Assembly: GCF_001889405.1 (NCBI RefSeq)
Contig: NZ_CP017921.1
Location: forward strand, 696,057-760,056
Origin: Methanohalophilus halophilus
Lineage (GTDB): Archaea; Halobacteriota; Methanosarcinia; Methanosarcinales; Methanosarcinaceae
DNA length: 64,000 nt
Direction: 5' to 3'
This document shows positions 17,289-28,553 of this stretch, one piece after another. A program made the translations under genes and the position numbers. A model generated the notes under the pieces. The model did not search any database and was not told the DNA's origin. It saw only the letters and a program-made list of their open reading frames with translations. The first letter of the stretch is position 1. Every line of letters starts with the position of its first letter.

Positions 17289-17381
17289 CCCCTCTAATTC
17301 CTGAAATTTGGACAAAATCTGAAAATGAAATATAACTCAAAACGATTATAATTAAAAAGCTCTTCTAGGAAAAGGATTCGC

Positions 17382-18524
17382 ATGTATACCAATGGAATTG
17401 CAAGAGATTCAGTCCTAAAGGAATTATCTCAAAAAAAAGACAGGGATAGTGATTACAGGAAAGTTCTGAGTTCCATGTGCACCTATCCTCATGAAATAGC
17501 ATAGCATGCCCATTGTACTTTCATCGAAGCTAATATGGGAGATCCGGGTCTTTTTCAGGGAACCTTTGAACTGGAAGAACAGGTCATGGAAATGCTGGGT
17601 GCCATGTTACATCTTCCGGATGCCTGTGGTTATATCAGTACAGGAGGCACTGAATCAAACATCCAGGCTGTAAGAGCCATGCGTAATCGTAATAGATCTA
17701 TTATACATCCTAACATTGTTGTTCCTGATTCAGCTCATTTTTCGTTTGATAAGGTTGGTGATCTTTCAGGTATAGATATACGCAGAGCGACTCTTTCTGA
17801 CAATTTACAGGTTGATACTGATGCAGTTAATTCCCTGATAGATAACAATACCGTAGGATTGGTGGGTATAGCCGGTACTACCGAATTTGGACAGGTAGAT
17901 CCTCTTGAAAAGCTTTCTGAGATAGCTATTGAAAATGGTTTACCTTTCCATGTAGATGCAGCTTTTGGAGGTTTTGTACTGCCTTTTCTCAAACCTAAAT
18001 ATAAATTTGATTTTGAAATTGCAGGTGTATCTTCTATCACAATAGATCCCCACAAAATGGGTTTAAGTACCATTCCTTCAGGAGGATTGCTTTTCCGCCA
18101 CAGTCTTGATCTTGACAATCTTGCGGTAAAGACTCCTTATCTTACTATAAGCAGTCAGTATTCCCTGACAGGTACCCGTAGTGGAGCAGCTGTAGTATCC
18201 ACTTACGCAGTTATGCGCCATCTTGGAAGAAAAGGTTATGGTGCCATCATACAACGATGTATGGATATGACTGACAGGCTTGTTGCAGGAGCCAGGAATA
18301 TAGGAATCCAGCCGGTGATAGAACCGGTGATGAATATCGTGGCGCTGGATGTAGAGTCACCAGTTGAAATCCAAAACAGGCTGTACGAGGATTTTGGATG
18401 GCGTGTTTCTCTTACGAGAAATCCGCAGGCATTAAGATTGGTTATCATGCCTCACCTGGATTATGAGATTATAGATATGTTTCTTGCGGATCTGGATACT
18501 CTTGTAAATCAATCTTTGAAATAA
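17382..18524 (+). CDS. mfnA: L-tyrosine decarboxylase MfnA with in-frame TAG at codon 41
   Basis: Read from ATG 17382 (GGA five bases upstream), the frame encodes 380 codons, close to the usual length of about 390 for MfnA, which makes tyramine for methanofuran. It starts [15 protein letters not shown], continues [11 protein letters not shown], meets TAG at 17502-17504, and continues in frame as [20 protein letters not shown], which is core family sequence. PLP-binding lysine is K225 in DPHKMG. Starting at ATG 17535 would drop 51 conserved residues and has no ribosome-binding site. No other intact gene in the window ends in TAG. Readthrough as pyrrolysine is therefore likely, but a nonsense mutation is not excluded. 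Confidence 0.85.
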
Positions 18525-27145: not shown

Positions 27146-27808
27146 ATGCATCTAATTCCAGCACTGAAAGAACTGGGCCTTCTGGGTGGGTTGAATCATC
27201 CGGTTAAATTATCCTCAGCTGAGTTTGCCGAATACATGGCGACCAGTTCCAAGACTTCAGCCAGGATTCTCAAATCCCTGGAAGATGAAGGTTATATTGA
27301 GAGACGTATTGTGCCTGGCGGACAGGAAGTGCTGCTCTCGGCTGCTGGCCGGCAGTTGCTAAAAAAGGAATACGAGGATTACAGGCATATATTCACCAAA
27401 ATTGTCGAGAAAAACCCGATTCATCTGCGGGGACATATTGTAAGCGGGCTTGGTGAAGGTCACTACTATATTGGTCAGGAGGGCTACCAGCGCCAGTTCG
27501 GGGACAAACTCGGGTTTGCTCCTTATCCAGGGACTCTCAATGTGCATCTGGATGACCTTAGCCTGAAATTCAGGGATAAACTTGCAGAAAGTGCTGTGAT
27601 TCCAATCTCCGGTTTCACAAGCGGAGAGCGTACTTTCGGTGCATGTCATTGTTTCTGTGTGAAAGTTGAGGGCTTTGAGGCAGCAGTAGTGGTTCCAGAC
27701 AGGACCCATTATCCGGCTGATCTGCTGGAGATAATTTCCCCCGTGAAATTGCGTGATGAACTTGATTTGAAGGACGGAGATGAGGTTGAGGTTACTGTTG
27801 ATTATTGA
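27146..27808 (+). CDS. ribK: CTP-dependent riboflavin kinase with HTH domain (RbkR-like)
   Basis: The 220-residue protein has an N-terminal winged helix-turn-helix (residues 1-85, SSAEFAEYMATSSKTSARILKSLEDEGYIERR) and a C-terminal archaeal riboflavin kinase domain (HIVSGLGEGHYYI, FAPYPGTLNVHL, GERTFGACHCF). The kinase makes FMN from riboflavin with CTP. The fused form is known in archaea as RbkR, a transcription regulator of riboflavin genes that binds FMN or CTP. The next gene, ribB, starts 17 bases downstream, so the pair forms a riboflavin operon under likely autocontrol. Confidence 0.93.
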   Translation: MHLIPALKELGLLGGLNHPVKLSSAEFAEYMATSSKTSARILKSLEDEGYIERRIVPGGQEVLLSAAGRQLLKKEYEDYRHIFTKIVEKNPIHLRGHIVSGLGEGHYYIGQEGYQRQFGDKLGFAPYPGTLNVHLDDLSLKFRDKLAESAVIPISGFTSGERTFGACHCFCVKVEGFEAAVVVPDRTHYPADLLEIISPVKLRDELDLKDGDEVEVTVDY

Positions 27809-27824
27809 TTGGAGGTAATTTAGT

Positions 27825-28553
27825 ATGGACAATTTAAAATTTTCAGATCCTGAAGTGAAAAAGGGTGTTGAGGCAGTTGAGCGGGGAGAAATGGTATTTA
27901 TATTTGATTCGGACAGCCGGGAAGGGGAGACGGATTTTGTGATTGCCGCCTCAGCTATTACTCCTGATGATGTACGCTGGATGCGTCGCGATGGAGGTGG
28001 CCTGATCTGTACTGCCCTGGCCGATGAGGTCTGTACGACGCTGGGTCTGCCTTTCATGGCGGATTTGCTGTCAGAAGGAGCAGGCAGATGGCCTGCAATT
28101 GGTAATACCGTGGAGCAGACCGGTGACCTTGCATATGATAGTCGCTCATCCTTTTCCATATGGGTCAATCACAGGGACACCCGTACCGGCATTCCGGACA
28201 ATGATCGGGCACTGACCATAAACAAGCTGGCTGAGATTTCTGAAAAGGGTAGAAACGGAGAAGCCGTAGTTTTTGGAGACGAGTTTCGTGCACCGGGTCA
28301 TGTTGCATTGCTAAGGGCAGCTGAAGGACTTGTGGAAAACCGCCGGGGCCAGACCGAGCTCTCGGTTGCTCTTGCAGAGATGGCCGGTATAACACCCGTC
28401 ATGGTAGTCTGTGAAATGCTGGATGATACCAATGGCAAAGCCCTTTCAAAAGAAGATGCCAGGACCTATGCCCAGTTGCATGGATGTGTTTTCCTGGAAG
28501 GTGGCCAGATCACAGAAGTCTATAAGGAATGGGTAGCCCAGCAGAAAAAGTGA
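27825..28553 (+). CDS. ribB: 3,4-dihydroxy-2-butanone-4-phosphate synthase
   Basis: The 242-residue enzyme converts ribulose 5-phosphate to the four-carbon precursor of riboflavin. Acidic loop and active-site motifs are present: DSDSREGETDFVIAAS near residue 27, RRDGGGLICTA near 60, GDEFRAPGHVALLRA near 155, and TELSVALAEMAGI near 180. Archaeal length is typical, and there is no GTP cyclohydrolase II fusion. GGAGGT precedes the ATG at eight bases. It is the second gene of the ribK operon. Confidence 0.95.
   Translation: MDNLKFSDPEVKKGVEAVERGEMVFIFDSDSREGETDFVIAASAITPDDVRWMRRDGGGLICTALADEVCTTLGLPFMADLLSEGAGRWPAIGNTVEQTGDLAYDSRSSFSIWVNHRDTRTGIPDNDRALTINKLAEISEKGRNGEAVVFGDEFRAPGHVALLRAAEGLVENRRGQTELSVALAEMAGITPVMVVCEMLDDTNGKALSKEDARTYAQLHGCVFLEGGQITEVYKEWVAQQKK

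Follow-up and report, generated by a model that had tools for sequence, protein, structure and literature searches.

The gene mfnA, which encodes the L-tyrosine (L-aspartate) decarboxylase of methanofuran synthesis, carries an in-frame TAG in Methanohalophilus halophilus, raising the question of whether this codon ends translation or is read, and if read, as which amino acid. We examined the gene within a stretch of 64,000 nucleotides (the window), where it lies on the forward strand at 17382-18524. The frame runs from an ATG at 17382 to a TAA at 18522-18524 and spans 380 codons, with codon 41, the TAG at 17502-17504, as its sole internal stop. The original prediction, drawn from the letters alone, had described this 380-codon readthrough frame, family-like sequence on both sides of the TAG, no frameshift, and a ribosome-binding site at the upstream start; each of these points holds. 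An SD-like AGGAAAAGG at 17367-17375 on the same strand precedes the ATG. The readthrough protein matches the family model for the tyrosine decarboxylase MfnA, TIGR03812, over residues 8-373 with 523 bits (cut-off 299), and the M. jannaschii MfnA structure 3f9t aligns to residues 3-374, gap-free at the TAG. The PLP lysine is conserved in DPHKMG (HK motif), K225 being invariant in a 21-protein alignment and aligned with 3f9t. Both the full-length score, above the curated cut-off, and the PLP lysine with the solved fold place the protein in TIGR03812. An AlphaFold2 model of the readthrough protein, built with 21 homologues, has a pTM of 0.84 and a TM score of 0.90 to 3f9t, and the protein is thus predicted to fold as MfnA. 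In this model residue 41 sits near the start of a helix (38-50), where confidence is modest; it is low for the N-terminal part.

The gene has no substitute in the genome. A search of the 2,022,959-base single-contig genome found no second mfnA copy, the only other match scoring 24 bits. We also tested mfnB, from the same methanofuran pathway, and found it intact in each of the eight genomes of the genus. MfnA scores above the TIGR03812 cut-off in 170 of the 186 genomes examined from the order, the remainder being mostly incomplete assemblies. In these obligate methylotrophs, methanofuran serves the oxidative branch (PMC3017947).

When 112 genomes of the family were searched in all six frames, mfnA with the same TAG at the same codon turned up in six species (G000, G031, G033, G034, G035 and G036), which is the conservation in related Methanohalophilus that had been proposed as a check. 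The records include Methanohalophilus sp. RSK, M. euhalobius WG-1MB, and M. profundi SLHTYRO. Pairwise identity of mfnA DNA among the carriers is 92-96%, with pS of 0.10-0.23, and they are therefore distinct species. In G032 and G037, two deeper-branching genomes of the genus at 60-62% identity, codon 41 encodes Ala; these two form the sister branch to the TAG clade, with support of 91/91, just under the star level of the tree tool. Of the TIGR03812 matches listed for the order, which cover 186 genomes, those with an internal stop all fall in the TAG clade. With the stop confined to one clade and Ala in its sister, the simplest history is a single gain of the TAG on the stem branch of the main Methanohalophilus clade. 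Across the same six species 67% of fourfold sites are invariant, and from the fourfold-site rate the chance that the three bases of the TAG would persist is about 0.30. Their persistence by itself is compatible with neutrality; it is the readthrough product that selection maintains. In the M. profundi draft (L007/L034), a T run close to mfnA codon 58 is longer by one T, which breaks the frame; this is probably an assembly error.

Purifying selection on the frame is equally strong before and after the TAG. Over 15 pairs (pS about 0.18), dN/dS is 0.115 for codons 1-40 (17382-17501), 0.102 for codons 42-51 (17505-17534, which retain the family motif AHxxFIExN), where changes are too few for a strong test alone, and 0.112 for codons 52-378.

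The means to read the codon is also present. The genome has tRNA-Pyl (anticodon CUA), pylS, pylB, pylC, pylD, and mtbA in a row at L084 6820-12309, which answers the proposed check for pylTSBCD; pylS was named by a family model and the rest of the cluster by order and sequence. PylS is over the cut-off in 8/8 genomes of the genus, each of which also carries an mttB with one TAG. In a congener, M. portucalensis, mass spectrometry has shown pyrrolysine in MttB (PMC4928046). Our genome sample for TAG usage comprised 283 kb, made up of eleven stretches (219 kb) and the window. An unbiased scan of this sample for coding frames interrupted by stops returned a single TAG case, mtmB at its textbook pyrrolysine site, in the context GRPGMAV-TAG-GPETSLSAQG. 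The same scan did not flag mfnA, probably because the part before the TAG is too short for its thresholds. As a stop, TAG is rare: it ends 4 of 223 long ORFs in the sample, two of which look genuine, and makes up about 1% of genuine stops. The four are pylB, a toprim-type gene, one ORF antisense to a real gene, and one that looks spurious. The only long ORF in the window with a TAG end, 27359-28168 on the reverse strand, lies antisense to a forward-strand gene that reads as being of riboflavin kinase type and is itself probably not a gene, which bears out the original prediction that no intact gene in the window ends in TAG. The toprim-type gene (L090 16689-17216) has its TAG followed immediately by TGA, which makes a tandem stop of the kind to be expected if TAG leaks. 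Each of the six TAG-clade species has the pylB TAG (L084 9261-9263; L078-L083) immediately ahead of the start of pylC, and pylB is reported to end in TAG in M. mazei, M. acetivorans, and M. burtonii as well (PMC2933860). With pylB ending in this codon, pyrrolysine supply could feed back on PylB.

MfnA thus has the marks of a pyrrolysine protein: an in-frame UAG with flanking homology, tRNA-Pyl(CUA) with PylS and PylBCD, and conservation of the UAG with purifying selection after it. Taken together, our results indicate that mfnA is very probably a functional single-copy gene whose codon-41 UAG is decoded as pyrrolysine with no special RNA element. Ribosomes would insert pyrrolysine at the UAG from tRNA-Pyl(CUA) charged by PylS, yielding full-length L-tyrosine decarboxylase; we infer this insertion and its efficiency, and with them the activity of the enzyme. 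Full-length MfnA would supply tyramine for methanofuran, and perhaps beta-alanine too. In a genome that seldom uses TAG as a stop, nothing more than the usual competition of Pyl-tRNA with release factor may be required. The TAG itself would have arisen once, at a tolerant helix position, and persisted through at least six species. If it is read only as pyrrolysine, methanofuran synthesis would depend on pyrrolysine supply, presumably even on methanol. The original prediction had suggested such a dependence of tyrosine decarboxylase and methanofuran synthesis, and the conserved TAG, the pyl cluster, the equal selection, the single copy, and the intact mfnB all support it.

A sub-case of this explanation, compatible with it, is that pyrrolysine is inserted and the TAG is a selected regulatory switch, with MfnA tuned by pyrrolysine supply, for example on methylamine versus methanol. 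A precedent is that the meaning of UAG is reported in PMC8211752 to vary with carbon source in Acetohalobium arabaticum. However, these methylotrophs need methanofuran on every substrate, and a single tolerant site fits a neutral origin. An RNA element that might serve such a switch is also missing at the mfnA TAG: we found no PYLIS-like or unusually stable structure after it (z -0.70) and no credible match among Rfam families. We therefore think a selected switch unlikely. The stable structure after the UAG by which PYLIS-assisted recoding is recognized is thus not a feature of mfnA. This absence is a point against our preferred explanation, but it is in line with a report that PYLIS is dispensable, a reporter-gene UAG with no special element being read at 20-30% in M. 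acetivorans (PMC2933860).

Alternatively, the TAG could terminate translation, codons 1-40 acting as a leader peptide and a functional truncated MfnA of 329 amino acids starting at the ATG at 17535-17537 (codon 52). This ATG is the first in-frame one past the TAG, ten codons on; the shorter form still passes TIGR03812 with 464 bits, and a mechanical ORF caller lists it. A clear SD-like sequence is absent before this ATG, however, and a restart at M52 drops eight residues that are invariant in 70 relatives (D22, Y25, M32, C33, T34, P36, H37, and N51, all but the last within codons 1-40), along with 17 columns invariant in the 21-protein alignment. Codons 42-51 contain no ATG, GTG, or TTG, and they and codons 1-40 evolve as coding sequence at the dN/dS of the rest. 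We reject the ATG at 17535 as the main start and consider termination followed by restart improbable.

It is also conceivable that readthrough of the UAG inserts something other than pyrrolysine, or pyrrolysine only some of the time, through near-cognate insertion or a different suppressor tRNA. Which residue a UAG receives cannot be told from the sequence, and the site gives some cause for doubt. Among 70 sequences, position 41 is V in 44, A in 18, I in 2, L in 1, and TAG in 5. These family residues are mostly small and hydrophobic, so that pyrrolysine, chemically unlike the usual Val or Ala, is unexpected here, which counts against our preferred explanation. The original prediction had argued for pyrrolysine, a lysine derivative, from a basic residue at this site in related proteins. 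It was right about Arg in M. jannaschii (3f9t alignment), but this is an exception to the mostly Val or Ala pattern, and the argument is weak. Against insertion of another residue stand the tRNA-Pyl(CUA) and PylS of this genome and the proven pyrrolysine at the UAG of the congener's MttB (PMC4928046), and we regard such a residue as very improbable. As position 41 is mostly Val or Ala in relatives, pyrrolysine at this position is probably tolerated rather than catalytic.

That mfnA is a pseudogene, or its TAG a sequencing error, is hardly credible and largely refuted: although there is an in-frame stop, and in M. profundi a broken frame, the TAG is common to six separately sequenced species, the frame and its selection (dN/dS) are intact, there is no second mfnA to take over in an order where nearly all genomes have MfnA, and the extra T sits in a homopolymer run of one draft assembly only.

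Real decay looks different, as citrate synthase in the same genus illustrates. An amber codon in the M. mahii citrate synthase gene was proposed in 2010 to encode pyrrolysine (PMC3017947), and the case resembles mfnA in being a biosynthetic gene of the same genus with an amber codon. Across the genus (L095-L101, L108), the gene is interrupted by TAG in one species only (G033), is intact with no TAG in two (G034 and G032), and survives as C-terminal pieces in four (G000, G031, G035, and G036). On these sequences it is a decaying gene and not a conserved pyrrolysine site, unlike mfnA with its conserved TAG. We therefore rejected it as a second conserved pyrrolysine gene, and the published proposal for M. 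mahii is weakened.

The main role known for pyrrolysine is catalytic, and cells can dispense with it when they are not using methylamines. For the Methanohalophilus clade, a conserved UAG in single-copy mfnA would change this, making the 22nd amino acid essential to basic metabolism, beyond eating methylamines. It is likely that pyrrolysine is indispensable outside methylamine catabolism throughout the clade, such that all methanofuran needs UAG decoding, pylTSBCD is essential on methanol, and the expanded code is locked in. The testable prediction is that members of this clade cannot do without pylT when growing on methanol. If so, mfnA illustrates the lock-in of a reassigned codon, and our reading corrects an annotation that would truncate or discard the gene.

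We found no paper tying mfnA to pyrrolysine, with the proviso that a 2025 report on a Pyl code lay outside the search and may list the gene. In that report, Kivenson et al. reportedly describe an archaeal 'Pyl code' in which all TAG codons are read as pyrrolysine. The code as reported resembles Methanohalophilus in its low use of TAG as a stop and in having TAG in ordinary genes. The methylamine methyltransferases MtmB, MtbB, and MttB of the same genomes are like MfnA in having a UAG read through as pyrrolysine, as predicted for MfnA. Their pyrrolysine is catalytic and conserved, whereas the MfnA site is mostly Val or Ala elsewhere. Outside the methyltransferases, TAG-bearing transposases are another amber-pyrrolysine case (PMC2933860). 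Closest is Thg1, the tRNA-His guanylyltransferase of Methanosarcina acetivorans, which contains pyrrolysine (Heinemann et al. 2009, as cited in PMC2933860). As described there, Thg1, like mfnA, is a housekeeping gene outside methylamine metabolism with an in-frame UAG where relatives have a sense codon, and in both proteins the UAG residue is apparently not needed for catalysis. The two differ in that pyrrolysine has been observed in Thg1 and is predicted in MfnA, and in that the Thg1 UAG is, by the same account, found in one species only. Amber-encoded pyrrolysine outside the methyltransferases is thus already known; what is unusual about mfnA is that six species share its UAG and that the gene, needed for a core cofactor, is single copy.
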